Of a DNA stretch of 41,754 nucleotides, positions 18,429-30,338 are shown piece by piece. The notes under the pieces were generated by a model. The model ran no database searches. It was not told the DNA's origin and saw nothing but the letters and a program-made list of their open reading frames with translations. This DNA is from Paenibacillus sp. (GTDB lineage: Bacteria; Bacteroidota; Bacteroidia; Bacteroidales; Muribaculaceae): positions 572,932-614,685 of the forward strand of contig JAMPHR010000001.1 in the NCBI GenBank assembly GCA_023663345.1, in the 5' to 3' direction. Position 1 is the first letter of the stretch. The number at the start of each line of letters is the position of its first letter. The position numbers and the translations under genes were made by a program.

Positions 18429-18677
18429 TCCTATGACACCGTTTTTTGTCGCGATAAGCGCAACACTTTTCATCAATTCATAGCCATTTGATTATACTTA
18501 TGAATATTTTTCCAAAATACAATATCAATTCAACGCATTTTTCTTTTATTCACTAAATTATTTGTTATTATTCTTAATATTGCCTAATTTTGTAGACCAA
18601 TCAATTGTTATAAGCTGCTACGGATTTTGATGACCATCATACGTCTTGTGGACAGCAACCAATCTAATTCACACAAT
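18429..18677. other. AT-rich intergenic leader of the SusC gene
   Basis: The gap holds one strong promoter (listed separately) and an 85-nt untranslated leader. I looked for inverted repeats flanking the promoter that would mark an invertible switch and saw none. Confidence 0.5.
18561..18592 (+). promoter_or_regulatory. promoter of the SusC-SusD-thioredoxin locus
   Basis: TTTG (18561-18564) is followed after exactly 20 nt by TAATTTTG (18585-18592), a full Bacteroidota promoter match. It lies about 86 nt before the first candidate start codon (ATG 18678). Confidence 0.8.
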
Positions 18678-18698
18678 ATGAACAACTTAACCATCACT

Positions 18699-18707
18699 GG
18701 GGGGGGG
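18699..18707 (+). repeat. G9 homopolymer tract in the SusC leader
   Basis: Nine consecutive G lie seven codons after the ATG at 18678. As written, the frame from that ATG ends at TAA 18708-18710. Removing one G (or adding two) joins it to the SusC frame and yields a full signal peptide (MNNLTITGGGKIFALSLAMA... ending TPLWA). Confidence 0.9.
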
Positions 18708-18732
18708 TAAAATCTTTGCTTTATCCCTCGCG

Positions 18733-21700
18733 ATGGCATTATCAACACCTCTGTGGGCCGAAACATCGGTCTCACTGACGGCTATTGAGAGTGCCCAACA
18801 GCAAATTACAGTAACCGGTGTCGTAAACGACGAAAATGGCGATCCTGTGCCCGGAGCAAACGTCCTGATCAAAGGGAAAAAAGGGTACGGAACCATTACC
18901 GACATCGACGGAAAATTCTCCATCAAGGCTATGGCCGGACAGACGATCGAAGTATCGTTTCTCGGATACACTCCGGCCGAACAGACCGTAACAAACGGTA
19001 AAAACGATCTCAAATTCACATTGACCCCCGACAATCAGCAGCTCGACGAGGTGATTGTCACAGGTTATCAGACTCTCTCCAAGGAGCGCGCCTCAGGATC
19101 ATTCTCAGTAGTGACTCCCGAAAAGCTCAAAGGCAAACTCCAGACCGGCATCATGGCCCGACTCGAGGGTATGGTGGCAGGTATGAAGACCGTGAACGGC
19201 GGCACCCCCGAGATACGTGGCGTGTCGACCCTCAACGGCACCAAGACCCCTCTTTACGTAGTTGACGGTATCCCCTACGAGGGTAGCCTCGCCGCGATCA
19301 ATCCTTCCGAAATCGTGAACGTGACCGTGCTTAAGGACGCGACAGCCGCCTCGATCTACGGTGCCCGCTCGGCCAACGGTGTTATCGTCATCACCACCCG
19401 CTCGGGAGAGCAGGGAAAGACCAAGGTGAGCTACAACGGTAGCGTGAAATTCACCCCGCTGCCTGACCGCGACTATCTCAACCTCACCTCAAGCGCCGAA
19501 CTGGTCGACCTGCAGGAGACCCTGTTCAAGTATCCCCATTCAGCCTACAACCCTCTCACAGCCAACACCCCAATGAACGAGGTCTACGAGCTGCTCTATG
19601 ACCGCGATGCCGGCCGCATCTCCGATGCTGATTTCCAGCAGAAGATGGATCATTACCGCAGCCTCAACAACTATGACCAGTTCAAGGACCGCTACGTGCG
19701 CAGCAACTCGATAGTGCAGCAGCACAACATCTCGTTCAGCGGTGGCTCGGGCATCTACAAATATGCCCTCTCGGCCAACTATCAGCAGAACAACCCCTAC
19801 GAAAAGGCTCAGTCCGACAGCCGTCTCGGTTTCAACCTCAAGAACCAGTTTGACTTCTTCAAGTGGCTCCGCGTCAACCTCGGCATAATCCAGAGCAACA
19901 CCAACGCCAGCTACAACAACGGCTTCACCGGCTACAGCTATCTCTACAGCGGAGCCTCCTACAAGATGCTCTACAACGAGGACGGCACCCCCGCCCAGTG
20001 GTACAGCGGAAAGAACCAGCGCGAGATCGACCGCCTCAACGCCCTGGGACTTCTCGACGAGACATTCATCCCCGTGTATGAGGAGGACAAGGCCCACTAC
20101 AAGAGCGAGGGCAAATATCAGAACATCAACCTCGCCCTGCGCTTCAACATCATCGAGGGTCTCAATCTCGATCTCATGTACCAGACCGAGAATACCAACA
20201 GCTACACCAAGCAGTTGTACACCGAAAACTCACGCACCGTGAAGACCGAGGTCAACAACGCCACCGTGATCGACAAGGACGGCAAGGTGACCAACCATAT
20301 CCCCAAGGGCGGCAAGCTCTCGGAGAGCTGGAGCAAGAACAGCTCCTACACCATGCGTGCGCAGTTGAACTTCAACCGTCAGTTTGCCGAGAAGCACGAC
20401 GTGCAGGCCCTCGTAGGTGCCGAGCGCCGCAAGGTGACATCCCACGGCACAAGCGTCAACAAGTGGGGATACGATGACACCACTCTCGCGTTCAAGTCCA
20501 TCAACGAACTTAACCTCGGACAGGCCGTGACCGGAACCCAGTCGACAAGCGGCAGCTACTATTACAGCGGTCCTTACGACAGGTTCTCCAACTCCGACAA
20601 CCGCTATGTGGCATTCTATGCCAACGCTTCCTACACATTCGACAACCTCATCACAGCCACAGGAAGTATCCGTCTCGACAAGTCCAACCTGTTCGGTACC
20701 GATCCCAAGTATCAGAACCGTCCCCTCTGGTCGGCCGGTCTGCAGTATCATGCCCTCCGTGGCTGGAACTGGGTTGACCGCCTCACCGTGCGCGCCACCT
20801 ACGGTATCAACGGTAACGTGGCCAAGAACAGCGGCCCCTACATGATCGCACAGACCCAGAGCCGTCCCAACAGCTACACCAACGATTACTACTCGGTGAT
20901 CACCACTCCCCCGAATCCCACCCTCCGCTGGGAGAAGACCAAGGTGCTCAACCTCGGTGTTGACTTCAGCGTGCTCCACAACCGTCTGAACGGTGCCATC
21001 GAGTTCTACTCCAAGAACACCGACGACCTCCTGGGCCAGCGCCAGACCGATCCCACCTGCGGATGGGGCTCGCTACAGCTCAACTACGGAACCATGTACA
21101 ACCGCGGTGTCGAGCTCACACTCAACAGCGTGAATATCTCCAACCGTGATTTCCAGTGGACAAGCAACCTCGTGTTCAGCTACAACAAAAACAAGCTCAC
21201 CCACATCGAGAACTCGGGCACATCGGCCATGGATTACTACTATAGCCTCCAGAACCGCGAGGGCCGTCCCATGAGCTCGCTCTACTCGATACGCTATGCA
21301 GGCCTTGACAGCGAGGGCTATCCTACAGCCTACAAGCAGGATGGCACCATCATCAACAACTACCGTGACCTCGAGCCCGAGGATCTGGTGTACTCAGGCA
21401 CTACCAATCCCCCCTACTCGGCCGCCCTCACCAACCGTCTGTCATGGAAAGGCATCGACCTTGAATTCATGTTTGTGTACTACGGTGGCCACAAGCTGCG
21501 CGACGTGGGCGCAAGCTACGTGTGGAACCGTATGCCCACACTCAACTACACTGGCGTACTCGACCGCGACCGCATGCACTTCTGGCAGAATCCCGGTGAC
21601 GAGAACGATCCCGATATGGCTCCGGCATTTATCTACAACTCCGGTCACTCCAACTCGGAGTACCTGTGGAGCGCCGCCGACAAGCACATCGAGAAGGGCG

Positions 21701-21930
21701 ACTACATCAAGCTCCGCAACCTCATAATCGGTTACTCATTCCCCAAAAAGCTGATCAACAAGGCTTATCTCCAGGGCCTGCGTGTCGACCTTCAGATCCA
21801 GAACCTCTGGTACTGGGCCGCCAACAAGCGCAACCTCGACCCCGAGGTATGGTCAGGAACCACACTCAGCCCCTCGCGCGGATACCACATCCCGCCCACC
21901 TACACCATAGGTCTTTCAGCTAACTTCTAA
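18733..21930 (+). CDS. SusC/RagA-family TonB-dependent outer-membrane transporter, leader out of frame
   Basis: The uninterrupted frame is 1065 residues. A carboxypeptidase-regulatory-like beta domain (about 20-95; GDPVPGANVLIKG) comes first, then the plug. The plug begins at LDEVIVTGYQ (about 102) and contains YVVDGIPYEG and the family signature ATAASIYGARSANGVIVIT. A 22-strand-type beta-barrel follows to the aromatic C-terminus (LSANF). It would take up a nutrient with its SusD lid; the substrate is unknown. The ATG at 18733 gives only MALSTPLWA, too short to be a signal peptide. The true start is probably ATG 18678, separated by the G9 tract and one base out of frame. There is no STN domain, so no hint of anti-sigma signalling. 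Confidence 0.93.
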   Translation: MALSTPLWAETSVSLTAIESAQQQITVTGVVNDENGDPVPGANVLIKGKKGYGTITDIDGKFSIKAMAGQTIEVSFLGYTPAEQTVTNGKNDLKFTLTPDNQQLDEVIVTGYQTLSKERASGSFSVVTPEKLKGKLQTGIMARLEGMVAGMKTVNGGTPEIRGVSTLNGTKTPLYVVDGIPYEGSLAAINPSEIVNVTVLKDATAASIYGARSANGVIVITTRSGEQGKTKVSYNGSVKFTPLPDRDYLNLTSSAELVDLQETLFKYPHSAYNPLTANTPMNEVYELLYDRDAGRISDADFQQKMDHYRSLNNYDQFKDRYVRSNSIVQQHNISFSGGSGIYKYALSANYQQNNPYEKAQSDSRLGFNLKNQFDFFKWLRVNLGIIQSNTNASYNNGFTGYSYLYSGASYKMLYNEDGTPAQWYSGKNQREIDRLNALGLLDETFIPVYEEDKAHYKSEGKYQNINLALRFNIIEGLNLDLMYQTENTNSYTKQLYTENSRTVKTEVNNATVIDKDGKVTNHIPKGGKLSESWSKNSSYTMRAQLNFNRQFAEKHDVQALVGAERRKVTSHGTSVNKWGYDDTTLAFKSINELNLGQAVTGTQSTSGSYYYSGPYDRFSNSDNRYVAFYANASYTFDNLITATGSIRLDKSNLFGTDPKYQNRPLWSAGLQYHALRGWNWVDRLTVRATYGINGNVAKNSGPYMIAQTQSRPNSYTNDYYSVITTPPNPTLRWEKTKVLNLGVDFSVLHNRLNGAIEFYSKNTDDLLGQRQTDPTCGWGSLQLNYGTMYNRGVELTLNSVNISNRDFQWTSNLVFSYNKNKLTHIENSGTSAMDYYYSLQNREGRPMSSLYSIRYAGLDSEGYPTAYKQDGTIINNYRDLEPEDLVYSGTTNPPYSAALTNRLSWKGIDLEFMFVYYGGHKLRDVGASYVWNRMPTLNYTGVLDRDRMHFWQNPGDENDPDMAPAFIYNSGHSNSEYLWSAADKHIEKGDYIKLRNLIIGYSFPKKLINKAYLQGLRVDLQIQNLWYWAANKRNLDPEVWSGTTLSPSRGYHIPPTYTIGLSANF

Positions 21931-21944
21931 TCCCCCTCCGAGTC

Positions 21945-23420
21945 ATGAAATATAATAAAATATTAGCAACAACGGCTTCAGCTCTCTCCCTCATGGCCAT
22001 GTCATCGTGTGACGGCTGGCTCGACAATCAGCCCAAAGGCTTCACCATTCCCGAAAAATACGAGGATTACGAGCAGCTGATGAACAGCCAGTACCTCTAC
22101 CGCGCCCTCGACATCTATCCCTCGTTCATCACCGACGATATCCAGCTTGTGGCAACCGGCACGATACCCAATTTCAGCCTGTTTGAATACCGCGACAAGT
22201 CCGAGCATCTCAAGAATCTCTACTCCTTCCAGCACGGCCAGGTATTCACCCCCGGAAACTCCGACGGAATATGGGAGGATGCCTACTCCAATATCTTCAC
22301 CTACAATGCGGTGATCAACAATGTGCTCACCTCGGCTGGAGGTTCGGCCGATGACCGCAACCATCTCATGGGCGAGGCCCTGGTGGGACGCGCATTCGAG
22401 TATCTCAACCTGGTCAATCTCTACGGCAATCATTATGATCCCGCCACAGCCGATTCCGACTATGGTGTACCCCTCGTACTGAGCGAGGAGATCACCGGTG
22501 AGAAATATCCCCGTGCCTCAGTGGCCCAGGTATATGCCCAGATCGAGAGCGATCTCAACAATGCTGTCGACAATTATCTGGCCGCTTCCACTGCCACATC
22601 GTTCGATCCCGACCGTAGCGTGGGATTCGCATTCCTCTCGCGCATGTATCTCTACATGGGACGCTATGCCGATGCCCTTTCCAACGCCAACTCATCGCTC
22701 GCCCTCAACGACAAGCTCCTCGACTACAAGGACTACACCACCAAGCAGGGCCAGTGGGGACGCATCGTTGCAGCCGACGGCTCGGGCGACTTCCCTGATG
22801 AGCACGACAATCTCGAGAATGTGTACACCCGCATCCTCAACGGTACAAGCTACATATTCAAGAGCGTGGCCGCGAGCGAGGATCTGCTCGACACATTCGC
22901 CCGCAATCTCCCCGCCGACGGCGAGGATATGCGTCTGTCGCTCTTCTTTGCCAAGGATGAGTTCAATCCCTACACCGTAGGCGGATCTCCCGACCAATTC
23001 ATCGGCTACACCATCTTCGCTCCCTACATCGAGATGAACATAGGCTTCTCGACCCCCGAGGTGCTTCTGATCGCAGCCGAGTGTGAGGCACGTGTAGGCG
23101 ACAAGGACAAGGCTCTGGCCCATCTCGACAAGCTCCGCGACATGCGCATCAAGAACAATGTGCATTTCTCCACCGACTACACCAAGGAAGAAGTGCTGAA
23201 GATGGTGATCGACGAGCGCCGTAAGGAATTTGCCTTCATCGGTCTCACCCGTCTCATCGACCTCAAGCGCCTCAACCGCGAGAGCTGGTTTGCCAAGACC
23301 ATCACCCACTCTGCCGGAAACGAGGGCACCTGGGAGCTTCCTGCCAATGATCCGCGCTACATCATGCCCGTACCCGACAATGTGTTGAGCTTCAACAATA
23401 TGCCCCAGTACGAGCGTTAA
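21945..23420 (+). CDS. SusD/RagB-family nutrient-binding lipoprotein
   Basis: This 491-residue protein has a lipobox (MAMSSC, about residues 17-22), then the usual Asp-rich DGWLDNQPKG start of mature SusD-like proteins. The TPR-like helical scaffold and a C-terminal segment (LIDLKRLNRESWF...IMPVPDNVLSFNN) are typical of the family. It would form the extracellular lid of the SusC transporter. It begins 14 nt after the SusC stop. No glycan-binding residues can be assigned from sequence alone, and there is no glycoside hydrolase nearby to suggest a substrate. Confidence 0.93.
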   Translation: MKYNKILATTASALSLMAMSSCDGWLDNQPKGFTIPEKYEDYEQLMNSQYLYRALDIYPSFITDDIQLVATGTIPNFSLFEYRDKSEHLKNLYSFQHGQVFTPGNSDGIWEDAYSNIFTYNAVINNVLTSAGGSADDRNHLMGEALVGRAFEYLNLVNLYGNHYDPATADSDYGVPLVLSEEITGEKYPRASVAQVYAQIESDLNNAVDNYLAASTATSFDPDRSVGFAFLSRMYLYMGRYADALSNANSSLALNDKLLDYKDYTTKQGQWGRIVAADGSGDFPDEHDNLENVYTRILNGTSYIFKSVAASEDLLDTFARNLPADGEDMRLSLFFAKDEFNPYTVGGSPDQFIGYTIFAPYIEMNIGFSTPEVLLIAAECEARVGDKDKALAHLDKLRDMRIKNNVHFSTDYTKEEVLKMVIDERRKEFAFIGLTRLIDLKRLNRESWFAKTITHSAGNEGTWELPANDPRYIMPVPDNVLSFNNMPQYER

Positions 23421-23515: not shown

Positions 23516-24694
23516 ATGAAAAGAATAATAAGCATATTACTGCTTGCTGTAACAATTACAATATCATCTCACGCCTCAGGCATAGAATTCTATCACGGCA
23601 CTTGGGCCGAGGCTGTGGCCAAGGCCAAGAGCGAGAACAAGAAGATATTTGTGGACTTCTTCACCGAATGGTGCGGACCATGCCTCAACATGGCTCTCAA
23701 AGTGTTCCCGCTTCCCGAGGTCGGCGAAGCCTACAACAAGGACTTCGTGTGCCTCAAGATCGATGCCGAGAAAGGTGAGGGCGTGGAGCTCGCACGCAAA
23801 TATGGCGTTAACTCCTACCCCAGCTACGTATTCATCGACCCCGCTACCGAGGAGATGATACACCGTAGCGGAGGCAACAAGCCCGCCATCGACTTCATCA
23901 ACGACATCAAGGGAGCCAAGGATCCCAAACTCAGCTCGATATATCTCAATGAGAAGTACGCTTCGGGCGATTACGATTCAGCGTTCCTCATTGACTATAT
24001 ACGCGGAAAGAAGACCTCAGGCAGTCGCAATCTGCTTAAAGACTTCGACAAGCTGATCTCCATGGGCAACAAACTGACCGATCCCACCATCTGGGACCTC
24101 TACAGCGAGTGCATCACAGGATACGACAATCCCTATATCCGCGAGGTTTCTGACAACTATGGTCAGTTCTGCAACCTCTTCGGCAAAGAAGCGGTCGACT
24201 CAAAACTCGCATCGTCCACCCAGTATGCCTCGCCCGAGTTCATTCAGTCACTCTGTGATTTCGACGGCAAGGACTACAATATCAAGCTTGCCACCATGTC
24301 GCGCCTGTTCAACGGCAACAACAGCAACCCCGACGAGGCCTGGGCTTATGTGGACAAGCTCATTGCCGACACCACCGTCAACAAGAAAGATTTCGTGAGC
24401 CGTCTCGGTTTCTACACCCGCATCACTCCCAACTACCGCGACTGTGACCTCACATTTGACCAGCTTGTGAAAAAGGCTCGCTACACCCGCTACGTAGCCT
24501 ACAACAATTATGACCGCGACGACGCCATGCCTCACTACTATTACGCCATCGCGCTCGAATACCTGTGCCAGCGTGCCGCCAAGGAAGGCCGTCAGATCCC
24601 GGCCGATTTCTTCGCTACCCCCACCCATGGCAATCAGGAATACTCCACCCGCCATCCCCTCCTGAAGCAAAAGCCCTCCTACCGTAAAAAGTAG
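23516..24694 (+). CDS. secreted thioredoxin-fold protein with C-terminal helical extension
   Basis: This 392-residue protein has a signal peptide (about 1-20). A thioredoxin domain at about 25-135 has the redox motif WCGPC (C53, C56) and the cis-proline segment NSYPSYVF. A C-terminal region of about 250 residues, probably alpha-helical, has no recognised family. It would act in the periplasm on disulfides, perhaps of an imported substrate or of the transporter complex. It lies 95 nt after SusD beyond a strong hairpin. Thioredoxin-like genes beside SusC/SusD pairs are known in Bacteroidota, but the partner is not. Confidence 0.85.
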   Translation: MKRIISILLLAVTITISSHASGIEFYHGTWAEAVAKAKSENKKIFVDFFTEWCGPCLNMALKVFPLPEVGEAYNKDFVCLKIDAEKGEGVELARKYGVNSYPSYVFIDPATEEMIHRSGGNKPAIDFINDIKGAKDPKLSSIYLNEKYASGDYDSAFLIDYIRGKKTSGSRNLLKDFDKLISMGNKLTDPTIWDLYSECITGYDNPYIREVSDNYGQFCNLFGKEAVDSKLASSTQYASPEFIQSLCDFDGKDYNIKLATMSRLFNGNNSNPDEAWAYVDKLIADTTVNKKDFVSRLGFYTRITPNYRDCDLTFDQLVKKARYTRYVAYNNYDRDDAMPHYYYAIALEYLCQRAAKEGRQIPADFFATPTHGNQEYSTRHPLLKQKPSYRKK

Positions 24695-24929: not shown

Positions 24930-26789
24930 ATGAAATATTATTTCACATATCTTGGTAGGTTTGTAGCCTTAATGTCAATAATGTTTGTGTCAGCATGTAG
25001 TAGCGACAATGATGTTATTGAATCTACCACTTTGCCAAGCAGTCCCGTAATCCACGAATACGAGTTATCCCATGAAACAGGAGAGGAGTATGACATATAT
25101 TATAAATTCAATGAAAAAGTCATACGTCTAACTCAGACAGATGTTACTAATTATGTTCGTAAAGTTGAGGACGACTCCATTCTATATCTATCAACAACCA
25201 CACCTCTCGAATTGCTTCCTGCAAAAGGGTCTATATATTCAATTCCTGTAACTGATAAGACCCCTTACGGTTTGGGCAATAGAGTTGTATCTGTAACCGC
25301 TGAACAGGATCTCTATAAATGTGTCACCACAAGTATTCCATTAGATGAAATATTTGATGAGCTGTCTTTGACTTCCGAGGTGCTGTTAATTCCTGAGAAT
25401 GTTCCGAGCATGGTCGAAGACACTGATGGAAATACACATCCAATAACATTAAACCGACACAACAAATCCCGTGTGCAAGTTGGGGCAACCGATGTACTGA
25501 CTCTCAATCTGAATTATTCGAAAGACGCTGTAACAATAGGTGGTGATATTACTTTCGGCTCCATCTTGACTCTAAATTTTGATATTAAGAATAAAACATC
25601 GGAATGTTCTCTTGCAGTATATTCAGGAATTGACGGGAATATAGAGCTAAGTGCAAAGTGGTGGGAAGAAAGTAAATATAAGAGATTATTACCGAAAACC
25701 GGGGCTTTACCAATATATGAGGGTGCCATCGTTTGGGGACCTTTAGTATTCCGACCTTATGTTGAAGTTGAACTCGGTTACGAGGGATCCGTCGAAGGAT
25801 CCATATCTACTGGTTTCACAAAAAGCTTTGGCGCTAAGTTTGGCATTAAGAATAATATTGGCTTCAGTGAGAATCTCACTGATGATAACAGTAATATATT
25901 CAACGATATATCTGTTGACGCAAAAGCTGAATTAAATCTTGTATTAAAAGTAGATTTCGGATTAGGCCTTTTCACCAAGAATATCGCCTCTGAAATTTCT
26001 CCGAATATCAAGGCCGGATTTAGTACTGAGTGCAACCTGAATAATACAAATATTTTTAAAGAAAATCCTTCAATAGATTTTGATTTTACGGCAAATGCAG
26101 ATGTTTTGCTATACGCATATTTATTTGGCCATGAATTTGCCCATGCACAAGAGAATCTGGCGACTCTTTCTATTTTTTCCCATAAATGGCATCTTTTGCC
26201 CACTGTCAAGGAAAACTCCTTCAGTATAACTGATAATGCTTCGGACAATACATACAATGCCAAGTATTCTCTTTCAGGCGGTTTACTAACACTATTCCAT
26301 GAAATATATCCGGCAATGCGTGTATTCGATGACGATAATGAGGTCTATACATTGATCTCGGATGCGAATAAAATTTCCTATGCCTCTAAAGAATATGAAT
26401 TCAATCTTAAGAATCTGGAAAACGATAAAACCTATTCAGCAAGTCCGGCTATTAATTTATTCGGGAAAATTTATGAACACGATCCTCAAAAATTTTCCCG
26501 TAATGAATTAGTAGGGACCTGGAAAGAGACTTACGAGGACGGATATAGCATCATTACTTTCAATGCCGATGGGACATGGAATGAAGAGGATCATTATGAT
26601 GTCATAGACACATTCTATGGCACATACACATTAGATACTGACCGAAAGATTCTGTACAAACATTGTCTTGGAGGTTCCGATGGTCCATTTGAATCGGAAT
26701 TTTTCTACAAGATTATAGACAATAAATTATACCTGGAGTGGACTGACGGCGATGATCATAATCCCGGACCTTACACACGTGTGTTATAA
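24930..26789 (+). CDS. AT-rich accessory lipoprotein with lipocalin-like C-terminus
   Basis: This 619-residue protein has a lipobox (FVSAC, about residues 19-23). The central region (about 150-420) is rich in beta-strand-like repeats with GYEGSVEGSIS and DFGLGLF; I do not recognise a family there. The last 110 residues (from about 512, LVGTWKETYEDGYSIITFNADGTW) resemble small lipocalin-like domains found in many Bacteroidota lipoproteins. Codon use is visibly more AT-rich than in flanking core genes, which suggests acquisition. It sits between repeat copy A and a strong terminator. Function is unknown; a surface location is likely. Confidence 0.75.
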   Translation: MKYYFTYLGRFVALMSIMFVSACSSDNDVIESTTLPSSPVIHEYELSHETGEEYDIYYKFNEKVIRLTQTDVTNYVRKVEDDSILYLSTTTPLELLPAKGSIYSIPVTDKTPYGLGNRVVSVTAEQDLYKCVTTSIPLDEIFDELSLTSEVLLIPENVPSMVEDTDGNTHPITLNRHNKSRVQVGATDVLTLNLNYSKDAVTIGGDITFGSILTLNFDIKNKTSECSLAVYSGIDGNIELSAKWWEESKYKRLLPKTGALPIYEGAIVWGPLVFRPYVEVELGYEGSVEGSISTGFTKSFGAKFGIKNNIGFSENLTDDNSNIFNDISVDAKAELNLVLKVDFGLGLFTKNIASEISPNIKAGFSTECNLNNTNIFKENPSIDFDFTANADVLLYAYLFGHEFAHAQENLATLSIFSHKWHLLPTVKENSFSITDNASDNTYNAKYSLSGGLLTLFHEIYPAMRVFDDDNEVYTLISDANKISYASKEYEFNLKNLENDKTYSASPAINLFGKIYEHDPQKFSRNELVGTWKETYEDGYSIITFNADGTWNEEDHYDVIDTFYGTYTLDTDRKILYKHCLGGSDGPFESEFFYKIIDNKLYLEWTDGDDHNPGPYTRVL

Positions 26790-26952: not shown

Positions 26953-27064
26953 CAAACTTCATCTGCGCACGTTTCAGCAACATGACAAATGTCTTTTTCT
27001 CCGACAAATCTCCTTCAGTAAGCCTCCTCAGGAATATGGCTGTTGGATATATTAACAAGTTCAT
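26894..27064 (-). CDS. possible small ORF or gene relic
   Basis: On the minus strand a 56-codon frame starts at ATG 27064. It encodes a protein-like basic helix (FLRRLTEGDLSEKKTFVMLL, then KRAQMKFDKL) and stops at 26894. It runs through repeat copy B and lies antisense to the leader of the SGNH gene. It may be the C-terminal relic of a lost gene; I cannot name a family. Confidence 0.25.
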   Translation of the reverse strand: MNLLIYPTAIFLRRLTEGDLSEKKTFVMLLKRAQMKFDKLKAQSLSSNSSRSNTHL

Positions 27065-27073
27065 ATACTTTTG
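27042..27073 (+). promoter_or_regulatory. promoter of the SGNH hydrolase gene
   Basis: GTTG (27042-27045) is followed after 20 nt by TACTTTTG (27066-27073). This is one mismatch from the full consensus, about 60 nt before the start codon. Confidence 0.55.
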
Positions 27074-27132
27074 TAATATGCTTCAAAGAATCGGCGAATG
27101 CACTGAATCGCAATAATCCAAAATACATGTAT

Positions 27133-27912
27133 ATGAAAAGAGAAACCCTTCTTCTAACAATAATGTTTTTAATATTACCCTTTATATCTTTCGGTATAAG
27201 AGGGGAGGAGAAATCTGATTCGGTCAGAGTGTTGTTCATCGGCAACAGCTACACCCATTATCACGACCTCCCGGGAATGGTGAAAGATATATCATCACGT
27301 GCGGGAATACATGAGAAGTTGAAAATCTCCACCACTTCGTTTACTCCAGGTGGATGCACATTGAAAAAACATCTCGACAACAAGGAACTGATATCTGCTC
27401 TTTCAAAAGGAGGATGGGATTTTGTGGTGATTCAGGAACAGAGCACAGCTCCTGCCGGACCTACTGAATCTGTAGTGCGCAATGTATATCCCTATGCCGC
27501 ACGTCTCGATAGTCTCGCACATGCCGGTAGTCCAGATGTAAAGGTGATATATTATATGACATGGGGGCATAAGGATGGATATGCCCACCCTACCTACCCG
27601 CTATGCCACACCTATGAGGGTATGCAGGATCGATTGATCACAAGCTATCTGGAGATGGCTCATGCAAACAAGGGTCTGTGTGCCCCTGTCGGAATAGCTT
27701 GGAAGAGAGTCAGATTGGAACGCCCGTACAATACCTTATATTGGCCAGACAGAAGCCACCCGTCTAAATTGGGAACTTATCTTGCCGCAAATGTGATATA
27801 TGCTACGATGCTCGGCAGACCATATCAATCCACTTTCACAGCCAATCTTGACCCGGAACTCGCGGAATATATCCAGCAGGTGGCACAACAGACGGTATCG
27901 AAATCAAGATAA
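27133..27912 (+). CDS. secreted SGNH/GDSL hydrolase (DUF4886-like)
   Basis: This 259-residue protein has a signal peptide (about 1-24). It shows GNSYT (37-41, nucleophile S39), GG(C) near residue 75, and a C-terminal D206-x-x-H209 in DRSHPSKLGTYLAA. Together these form the Ser-Asp-His set of SGNH esterases, and the pattern fits DUF4886. It probably removes an acyl group from a carbohydrate or other ester outside the cytoplasm; the substrate is unknown. ATG 27127 would add two residues, and the longer upstream frame would bury the signal peptide. It is a single-gene unit between copy B and a hairpin, with intermediate base composition. Confidence 0.8.
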   Translation: MKRETLLLTIMFLILPFISFGIRGEEKSDSVRVLFIGNSYTHYHDLPGMVKDISSRAGIHEKLKISTTSFTPGGCTLKKHLDNKELISALSKGGWDFVVIQEQSTAPAGPTESVVRNVYPYAARLDSLAHAGSPDVKVIYYMTWGHKDGYAHPTYPLCHTYEGMQDRLITSYLEMAHANKGLCAPVGIAWKRVRLERPYNTLYWPDRSHPSKLGTYLAANVIYATMLGRPYQSTFTANLDPELAEYIQQVAQQTVSKSR

Positions 27913-28435: not shown

Positions 28436-29548
28436 ATGCTCAAGAAATTCAGCGTATCTAATTTCAAATGTTTCAAAGATAAAATCACCCTCGATCTTGG
28501 AGCCGTCAACGGCTACAACTTCAACTCCGAGGCTATCAAGAACGGCATTGTCAAGTCGGGTATAATCTACGGCCATAACGGATCGGGAAAATCCAATATC
28601 GCATTGGGCATATTTGATATAACCAAACACCTTACGGATCTTTCACGTCTTGATTTCAGATATTATCCCTATCTTAATGCCGATAGCTGTCAAGATCATG
28701 CTGATTTTGAATACACTTTCGTATTCGACGGGGTAGAAGTTGTGTACCGTTATTCCAAGTCGAGTTATGACACCCTTGTTTCCGAGGAATTGATTATTGA
28801 TTCCCAACCGGTGGTAACATTTGACCGCAGGTATTCTCAGGAATTCATCAGCCATCTCGATGGCACAAAAAACCTGAACAAGACCATCTCCCAACCTCAG
28901 CTATCTGCCATTAAATACATCCGTAACAACTCCGAACTGCCCGACGATAAAATCAACCGGACATTCAAGGCACTGTTCACATTTGTAGAGGGGATGTTAT
29001 TCTTCAAGTCGCTTGATGAACGTGTATATTTAGGGCGTCAACCTAAAAGCACCAGCCTATTCGACACCATAATTTCCAATGGTTTGCTTGCCGAATACAA
29101 TGATTTCCTTAGACAGGCCGGAATAGAATGTGACCTGGAGATTGCAGAAAAGAATGACGGAAAAACCATAGTACGCGTTTTCGAATCAGGCAAAAGAATC
29201 GAGATAGATGAGATATGGTCAACCGGCACAAGCAACCTCACACTATTCTTCTGCTGGTATCAGCAGGTGATCAATAATGAAGTCAGCTTCCTGTTCATCG
29301 ACGAGTTTGATGCGTTCTATCATTTCGACATTTCCCGAAGCATCATCAACCTGCTGAAGAATTCACCGGTACAGACCCTCCTCACCACCCATAATACAGC
29401 CAACATGACCAACTCCCTGTTGCGCCCCGACTGCTATTTCCTGATCCATCCCGACAGGATATCCCAGTTGTCACGACTTACCCACAAGGAACTCCGGGAA
29501 GCCCACAATATCGAAAAAATGTATAAAGCAGGCAGTTTCAATGGCTAA
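28436..29548 (+). CDS. AAA/ABC-type ATPase of a putative phage-defence pair
   Basis: This 370-residue protein resembles the AAA_15/AAA_21 ATPases of OLD/AbiL/RloA type. It starts with FSVSNFKCFKDKITLDL. Walker A is GHNGSGKS (46-53), Walker B FLFIDEFD (285-292), and the H-loop TTHN (317-320). The signature-like region is WSTGTSNL just before Walker B. There is no signal peptide, so it is cytoplasmic. The stop codon overlaps the start of the TOPRIM gene by 8 nt, the tight coupling expected of a sensor-ATPase plus effector. A defence role is inferred from family and context. Core housekeeping SMC-type roles are unlikely given its length and partner. Confidence 0.8.
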   Translation: MLKKFSVSNFKCFKDKITLDLGAVNGYNFNSEAIKNGIVKSGIIYGHNGSGKSNIALGIFDITKHLTDLSRLDFRYYPYLNADSCQDHADFEYTFVFDGVEVVYRYSKSSYDTLVSEELIIDSQPVVTFDRRYSQEFISHLDGTKNLNKTISQPQLSAIKYIRNNSELPDDKINRTFKALFTFVEGMLFFKSLDERVYLGRQPKSTSLFDTIISNGLLAEYNDFLRQAGIECDLEIAEKNDGKTIVRVFESGKRIEIDEIWSTGTSNLTLFFCWYQQVINNEVSFLFIDEFDAFYHFDISRSIINLLKNSPVQTLLTTHNTANMTNSLLRPDCYFLIHPDRISQLSRLTHKELREAHNIEKMYKAGSFNG

Positions 29549-30338
29549 CAAGATTCTTTTTGTAGTGGAAGGAGAGACGAAGGAACCTGCGATCCTATCG
29601 TCTCTGCCCACATTTATGCCTGATGAAAGCGAGAAAATCGTGTGGTGCAACCGCAATCATATATACAATTTTTACCAAAAGATCAACGAAGATCCTGACC
29701 TTGACATATTCTCACTCATAAAAGAAGAGAACCCCGATGGCCCGCTTAAGGAATATATCAGGGAGGATTTCGATCAGGTGTATATGTTCTTCGATTATGA
29801 CGGTCATGTAGGGCTTTCCCGCGTTTCTGATGAACCTCTTGGCGATGACATCATACAGTTGATGCTCGATCGGTTTGACAACGAGACCGAGGAGGGCAAA
29901 TTATTCATAAGTTATCCTATGGCAGAGGCATTGGAACATACACCTATCGATATGGCTGAGTTCCGGGATCTCACTGCAAAATGCAAGGGGATCAACTGTC
30001 CAAATAAAGAAACCTGTCCCGACAGAGAGAGTTGCAAAAAGGAACCTCACTACAAGAAGATTGTCAACCTGAACAAGCCTCTTAAGAAGCCAATCGCTGA
30101 TTATACGGATGCCGACTGGAAACGCATAGCCATGTTCCACATCTACAAAATGGAATATCTAATTAACGGCAACATGGATTTTCCGTCAGTACTCCATAGC
30201 CAGCAGAATATTTTCAAGCGCCAATTGGAGGAATATATATCCAGGCCTTGTCCTGTGGTTTCTGTTCTGAGCGGATTCCCGGCTTTCGTTCTCGATTACT
30301 ATGGAACATCCGTCAGAGAAAAATTAGAGGCTGTCTAA
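29541..30338 (+). CDS. TOPRIM-domain effector (RloB/AbiLii-like) with four-cysteine cluster
   Basis: This 265-residue protein begins with a TOPRIM-like strand and glutamate (ILFVVEGETKE, E10), followed by the DxD motif in MFFDYDGH (D85, D87). A conserved-looking ISYPMAEALEH follows (123-133). Residues 148-165 contain C-x4-C-x5-C-x5-C, a possible zinc site. TOPRIM partners of AAA ATPases in AbiL, RloAB and PARIS act as nucleases or tRNA-cleaving effectors, so a toxic effector held in check by the ATPase is plausible. It overlaps the ATPase gene by 8 nt and ends 44 nt before the converging kinase gene. RloB membership is a by-eye assignment. Confidence 0.7.
   Translation: MANKILFVVEGETKEPAILSSLPTFMPDESEKIVWCNRNHIYNFYQKINEDPDLDIFSLIKEENPDGPLKEYIREDFDQVYMFFDYDGHVGLSRVSDEPLGDDIIQLMLDRFDNETEEGKLFISYPMAEALEHTPIDMAEFRDLTAKCKGINCPNKETCPDRESCKKEPHYKKIVNLNKPLKKPIADYTDADWKRIAMFHIYKMEYLINGNMDFPSVLHSQQNIFKRQLEEYISRPCPVVSVLSGFPAFVLDYYGTSVREKLEAV

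Follow-up and report, generated by a model that had tools for sequence, protein, structure and literature searches.

Why is a complete transporter gene separated from its own start codon by a run of nine guanines? The question arises in a 41,754-nt stretch of a Muribaculaceae genome, hereafter the window, in which a G9 tract on the forward strand (18699..18707) is the candidate switch and, at its assembled length, leaves the gene out of frame. Reading the sequence confirmed the layout described in an earlier note: ATG 18678 and the codons up to the tract (MNNLTIT, codons 1-7, 18678..18698, forward strand) supply the n-region of a split signal peptide, run into the nine Gs and stop at TAA 18708. 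The core and end of the signal peptide (KIFALSLAMALSTPLWA, 18709..18759, forward strand) lie in the SusC frame, severed from this start codon. No stop interrupts that frame from 18691 onward, and its first in-frame ATG is at 18733; a start there, which the note described as lacking a hydrophobic core, loses most of that core. Tract lengths of 8 or 11 would fuse the two frames as MNNLTIT-GGG-KIFALSLAMALSTPLWA, in line with the note. The 3' flank of the tract, TAAAA (18708..18712, forward strand), is an instance of a post-tract TAA signature; its TAA doubles as the stop of the short frame (18708-18710).

The gene behind the tract is a SusC/RagA TonB-dependent transporter with 1065 codons intact from ATG 18733 (18733..21930; Pfam, NCBIfam TIGR04056), and it scores 621.5 bits with TIGR04056 against a cutoff of 368.25. 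A SusD-like lipoprotein, the partner of the transporter, adjoins it (21945..23420; Pfam PF14322, PF07980). Downstream on the same forward strand lie a thioredoxin-like protein (23516..24694), placed by its spacing perhaps in the same operon, and two further possible operon members: a 619-aa protein with a lipoprotein-like start, to which Pfam and NCBIfam searches assigned no family (24930..26789), and a DUF4886 protein (27043..27912). Upstream, direct reading finds TTTG (18561-18564), 20 nt and TAATTTTG (18585-18592), the consensus of a Bacteroidota-type promoter (18561..18592, forward strand), so that the promoter described in the note holds. Elsewhere in the window, at 28436-30338, an AAA ATPase and its partner gene correspond to PDC-M12A/PDC-M12B, a candidate defence pair of PADLOC (3.5e-143 and 2.2e-68).

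The best explanation of the tract, at odds of roughly four in five, is a slipped-strand on/off contingency locus, a reading made from sequence comparison. Replication slippage would change the G count. At one length in three the start codon would read into the signal-peptide core and SusC would be exported (ON); at the other two, translation would stop soon past the tract (OFF). The window gene would be OFF as assembled. The homopolymer sits between the start codon and the signal-peptide core, exactly where its length would alter the frame and, judged from the frame, expression. Such a switch presumes different tract lengths among the cells of a population, with protein coming only from in-frame tracts; the length variation observed here is that between species and between paralogs, as distinct from variation within one clone. 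Within the window the bare G run is at chance level (2 overlapping G8 matches against 2.27 expected from window shuffles). Because the run alone is expected by chance, the case is built on comparison.

Comparison places the tract in a genome-wide set. The source genome (2.64 Mb, 22 contigs) holds 51 tracts of at least seven Gs. TA follows directly after all 14 of those with at least nine Gs and after only 6 of the 37 G7-G8 tracts (Fisher P 3e-8), a contrast that rules out chance. Tracts of at least eight Gs followed by TA number 18, 17 of them distinct; one of two tracts at locus L082 was merged on account of identical flanks for the counts of gene content, promoters and ORF position, and both were kept for the frame tally. 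Six SusC genes carry G9 in or just behind the signal peptide (the window gene, two at L082, and one each at L084, L086 and L090), and two carry C9 on the coding strand (L083, within the signal peptide; L085, further in). At L087, L088 and L091 the tract lies upstream of SusC, and L086 has a second, upstream tract. Other genes are represented by an acyltransferase that begins with a C10 (L089, PF01757) and a glycosyltransferase ORF with C9 at its 3' end (L081, PF00535). Among the shorter TA tracts, that of L100 lies in a SusC resembling the L082 genes and is in frame at G8, and that of L109 is upstream of a SusC. One genome thus has several such loci on surface genes, as expected of a phasome, with 18 TA-flanked tracts of at least eight Gs. 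The slipped-strand locus proposed in the note gains support from this comparison, but not as a lone locus: the window tract appears to be one member of a slippage phasome found in part of the Bacteroidales.

TA-flanked tracts of the source genome favour SusC. By one assignment rule, 12 of the 17 distinct tracts fall to SusC, two to other genes and three to none, whereas 22 non-TA control tracts, drawn from the 31 non-TA tracts of at least seven Gs in this genome, give 2, 16 and 4 (Fisher P 4e-5 for the SusC share of assigned genes). Pfam searches over more genomes put SusC and other surface families at the top of the TA-tract lists and not of the control list. The 102 ORFs from seven genomes of the family gave Plug 25 times, Acyl_transf_3 8, Glycos_transf_2 6, LRR_5 3 and Glyco_transf_8 3; the 45 from a Phocaeicola MAG (G451) and a Bacteroides strain (G452) gave Plug 19, FecR_C 5 and Acyl_transf_3 3. 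The 18 control ORFs gave Plug 2 and otherwise single families such as Rho, tRNA synthetases and ribosomal S4. Some ORFs assigned by the rule are probably artefacts, that of L081 being an example. On these lists a coding class of G8-12-TA tracts would sit mostly at the 5' ends of SusC, acyltransferase, glycosyltransferase and FecR genes. Not every genome targets SusC. It makes up 44 of 147 assigned genes in nine genomes together, unevenly spread, and is absent from the 18 assigned genes of G032 and the 25 of G059, two related genomes with many tracts.

Several tract-bearing genes merit description in their own right. In the Phocaeicola MAG, FecR anti-sigma genes have G or C tracts ahead of a membrane segment (L268, L273, L280), and SusC regulons might be switched through the FecR anti-sigma factor. 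Neighbouring ORFs with similar starts each have their own C tract near the start at L112, L114 and L134 (G059 and G032), tracts that have perhaps spread by gene duplication. ORFs of more than 1100 aa lie behind upstream tracts at L125, L132, L133 and L136, several with signal-peptide-like starts. LRR_5, of the BspA type, is among the families of tract-associated ORFs.

Orthologs of the window gene hold tracts of different length at the same site. An uncultured Muribaculaceae genome of the same genus (G019, 83% identity) has G7 followed by TAAAAGC, out of frame; in the Phocaeicola MAG (73%) a G10 precedes TAAAAT and is out of frame; Bacteroides sp. Marseille-P3684 (65%), a genome with 11 tracts, has an in-frame G9 ahead of TAAG, giving MNSFRKPVGGGKIFALFSMLALTVPMPGEA. 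The G7 of G019 is perhaps a locked state. Two other Bacteroides orthologs (64-65%) are without the tract and have an ordinary signal peptide, and the ortholog in G010 (81% over residues 24-1065) likewise lacks it, its N-terminus being longer. Searches of 393 genomes from the order and 397 from the family gave few close orthologs, namely the source gene and those of G019 (83%), G010 (81%) and G152 (52%). Within the source genome, two SusC paralogs have G9 out of frame and a third has G8 in frame. The comparison of tract length among relatives that the note had called for therefore yields G7, G10 and G9 in orthologs and G8 and G9 in paralogs, with both frames represented. A signal-peptide tract kept across families with differing length and state is what a selected contingency locus predicts. 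The expectation that a SusC gene controlled by a simple sequence repeat (SSR) would be unusual for Bacteroidota needs qualifying, for Phocaeicola and Bacteroides too have tract-bearing SusC genes.

Decay of the gene accounts for little of this. A pseudogene with an accidental homopolymer would be out of frame, as the window gene is and as its G019 ortholog is at G7. Yet all 1065 codons of the frame are intact, with 83% identity to G019, the tract position is kept in Phocaeicola and Bacteroides, and the same arrangement recurs at many other loci. The earlier judgement that the gene is not decaying stands on that intact frame, identity and conserved position, and we give the pseudogene almost no credence.

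Both frame states occur across genomes, and in the source genome one of them predominates. Free slippage predicts that one third of coding tracts are in frame. Among SusC-coding tracts of the six genomes that have them (the source, G010, G014, G019, G451 and G452), 11 of 31 are in frame and 20 out, a share not different from one third; the tally was made by reading rather than by script, leaves out L285, which has no clear in-frame class, and assigns L279 and L282 by open frame alone, without a signal peptide. In the congeners G014 and G010 tracts are mostly of length 8, several in frame at that length and others out, whereas tracts of Phocaeicola and Bacteroides usually need nine Gs to be in frame, and both states are present there. 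Lengths are strongly peaked, with G8 in 19 of the 20 tracts of at least eight Gs plus TA in G014. In the source genome, 8 or 11 is the in-frame class of all eight coding families, every SusC-coding tract except that of L100 is one G too long, and seven of the eight families have all copies out of frame. The probability of one common in-frame class across eight families is about 5e-4. This uniformity sits oddly with free slippage; it could reflect a real but mostly silent set, a +1 call confined to these tracts, or a programmed step. It touches the state of the switch in the source genome and not the existence of the tract set.

A +1 call would mean that the true tract is one G shorter and that the genes are intact in the sequenced population. 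Correcting such an assembly or sequencing error would put all eight coding families in frame at 8, the length that the congener G014 shows in 19 of 20 cases, and two blocks of exactly 100 N in the stretches analysed point to scaffold gaps. But the tracts, their TA flank and their placement at gene starts remain whatever the call, and the same assembly calls G8 at one SusC (L100) and at three non-coding tracts (L105, L108, L109). Phocaeicola and Bacteroides show both frame states. Twelve of the 22 non-TA controls (ten G7, two G8) lie inside ORFs that run through them, so there is no general +1 error, although this is not a clean comparison, as only such ORFs qualify and few controls reach G8. 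A related count, with one rule for both kinds of tract, considered those touching an ORF of at least 250 aa: of 10 TA tracts, 2 are spanned by an uninterrupted ORF and 8 meet one at its edge, against 12 and 4 of 16 non-TA tracts, with L086 scored as spanned despite its out-of-frame start codon. The note had named homopolymer error as the main alternative. It could be part of the story, given that coding tracts are mostly one G too long, but it is not the whole of it, with tract placement kept between families and a systematic TA flank. We consider error unlikely as the explanation; it may hold for the local state while the tracts switch elsewhere, and to that extent its odds overlap with those of the contingency locus.

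A programmed step would leave the DNA unchanged. Here a fixed out-of-frame tract would be bypassed by a fraction of slipping transcripts or ribosomes, giving constant low expression, as the uniform +1 relation of the source-genome coding tracts and the tight length peaks would allow. Against a fixed state, in-frame and out-of-frame tracts coexist at the same site among both paralogs and orthologs. The tracts in promoters have no reading frame, and where C is on the coding strand the same outcome would be needed from a different sequence. Programmed slippage is accordingly a slim prospect, and a contingency locus whose length varies by replication slippage remains our preferred reading.

The promoter tracts extend the set beyond coding sequence. 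Among 161 TA tracts from nine genomes (36 of the 39 in G451, 27 of 28 in G059, 8 of 12 in G019, 17 of 18 in the source and all of those in the other genomes), 52 are accompanied on the G strand by an exact TAnnTTTG no more than 80 nt away, against a mean of 7.2 and a maximum of 18 in base-shuffled flanks. The motif starts 17-23 nt downstream of the tract in 26 of the 161 (shuffled mean 0.81, maximum 4). Counted from the end of the tract, 14 of the starts fall on bases 13-14 and 19 on bases 19-20. Many of the tracts also have two TTAA motifs upstream. The tract seems to lie about where a -33 element would be, such that its length would set the spacing. A promoter class of G8-12-TA tracts would then stand before the TAnnTTTG box and act by altering that spacing.

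The flank itself is shared by all classes. The 121 of 161 tracts that fell into three classes were all preselected for TA and give free evidence only from position +3 on. There, A follows TA in 43 of 49 promoter tracts, 32 of 40 coding tracts in G sense and 22 of 32 in C sense. The next two bases past TAA are mostly A or T, most weakly at +5 in C sense. Codon usage was considered as a source of the TA and rejected: a flank kept in promoters and on both coding strands has no explanation in codons. Easier strand opening beside the tract and recognition by a factor are both candidates for its basis. A wider generalisation, which we offer tentatively and think somewhat improbable in its full form, is a large SSR phasome in part of the Bacteroidales made of two-part elements, each a G8-10 run with TAA and more A/T behind it, located in promoters and in genes of either orientation. 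The flank would then act as an orientation-dependent signal at the DNA level, setting the rate of slippage or drawing in a dedicated factor, and this would amount to targeted tract mutagenesis in commensals.

The TA enrichment belongs to part of the Bacteroidales. TA follows 232 of 443 tracts of at least nine Gs in 61 genomes of the family and 54 of 211 in 40 genomes from other families of the order, and 27 of these 101 relatives are without any such TA tract. Across 395 genomes sampled from the phylum, the source genome has 10 copies of GGGGGGGGTAA, and the five others of its order have 0, 0, 0, 1 and 0. By our reading of the table, at least five copies occur in 3 of 389 genomes outside the order (G880 with 5, G1060 with 5 and G1176 with 12, the last also having 26 matches of the reversed control). 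The few GGGGGGGGTAA-rich genomes outside the order and the relatives lacking TA tracts together assign the enrichment to part of the order. Other poly-G elements were met along the way. The control AATGGGGGGGG matches 20 times in G1056 and 26 times in G1176, which suggests, from these matches, that another poly-G element may exist elsewhere in the phylum. In G088 (L186-L188), inverted repeats rich in TGCGCA and GGGTACCC enclose paired G8-TA sites that look like a different repeat family, unrelated to the tract set. In G032, poly-G without a following TA stands beside repeated TTGCAAAACC-like sequence (L199, L202, L204).

Could the G-TA units be recombination sites that invert or shuffle promoter and signal-peptide cassettes? 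SusC inversion is known in Bacteroides fragilis, according to a title cited in PMC11868660, and at the sister locus L086 (6437-6818) a G9 and a G10 in opposite orientation, each followed by TAG and 372 bp apart, bracket the SusC promoter region and signal peptide. The shared arm of this pair is only 12 nt, however. Among the loci scanned for inverted-repeat partners, which lay outside the window locus, L086 alone gave such a pair. In 12 source-genome stretches, two tracts occur only there and at L082, where they have the same orientation and lie 5.8 kb apart. Tracts within the SusC N-terminal domain (L085, L166, L172) would break genes on inversion. Recombination is therefore very doubtful, and slippage at the tract itself fits better.

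If the contingency reading is right, a slippage phasome in Muribaculaceae and Bacteroidaceae would tie bet-hedging to glycan uptake in commensals. It would add switched SusC genes that inversion searches miss and that may be annotated as broken. The TAA flank makes the mechanism testable by point mutation. Among the matches listed from full-text literature, a corpus that omits many subscription papers and all bioRxiv preprints, none described SSR-driven phase switching of a SusC gene, or any SSR phase variation in Muribaculaceae, Phocaeicola or Bacteroides. PMC11868660 cites a 378-genome survey of long SSRs, and Bacteroides may be among the organisms it covered.

As far as we have seen, the class of mechanism is known and the host group, target and flank are new. 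Poly-G/C contingency loci, a form of SSR phase variation, are known in Campylobacter, Helicobacter and Neisseria. The likeness is close: G homopolymers at the 5' ends or promoters of surface genes, many loci per genome and one length in three in frame. Unlike those systems, the present candidate belongs to Bacteroidales and has SusC/SusD nutrient uptake as its main target in several genomes; the 3' TAA flank seen here in every class may be a further difference. Neisseria porA and nadA are phase-variable through repeats in their promoters, and share with the promoter class a homopolymer or repeat within the promoter; here the tract precedes a -7 box of the Bacteroidota type, in many cases with upstream TTAA motifs, and its effect on transcription is presumed from that position. 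SusC genes of Bacteroides fragilis, according to PMC11868660 and a title cited there, switch by inversion. In these invertase-switched SusC/SusD systems the same protein family is phase-variable within the same order, but there the event is site-specific inversion, whereas here tract length would do the switching, and a 12-nt inverted pair occurs at one sister locus only.
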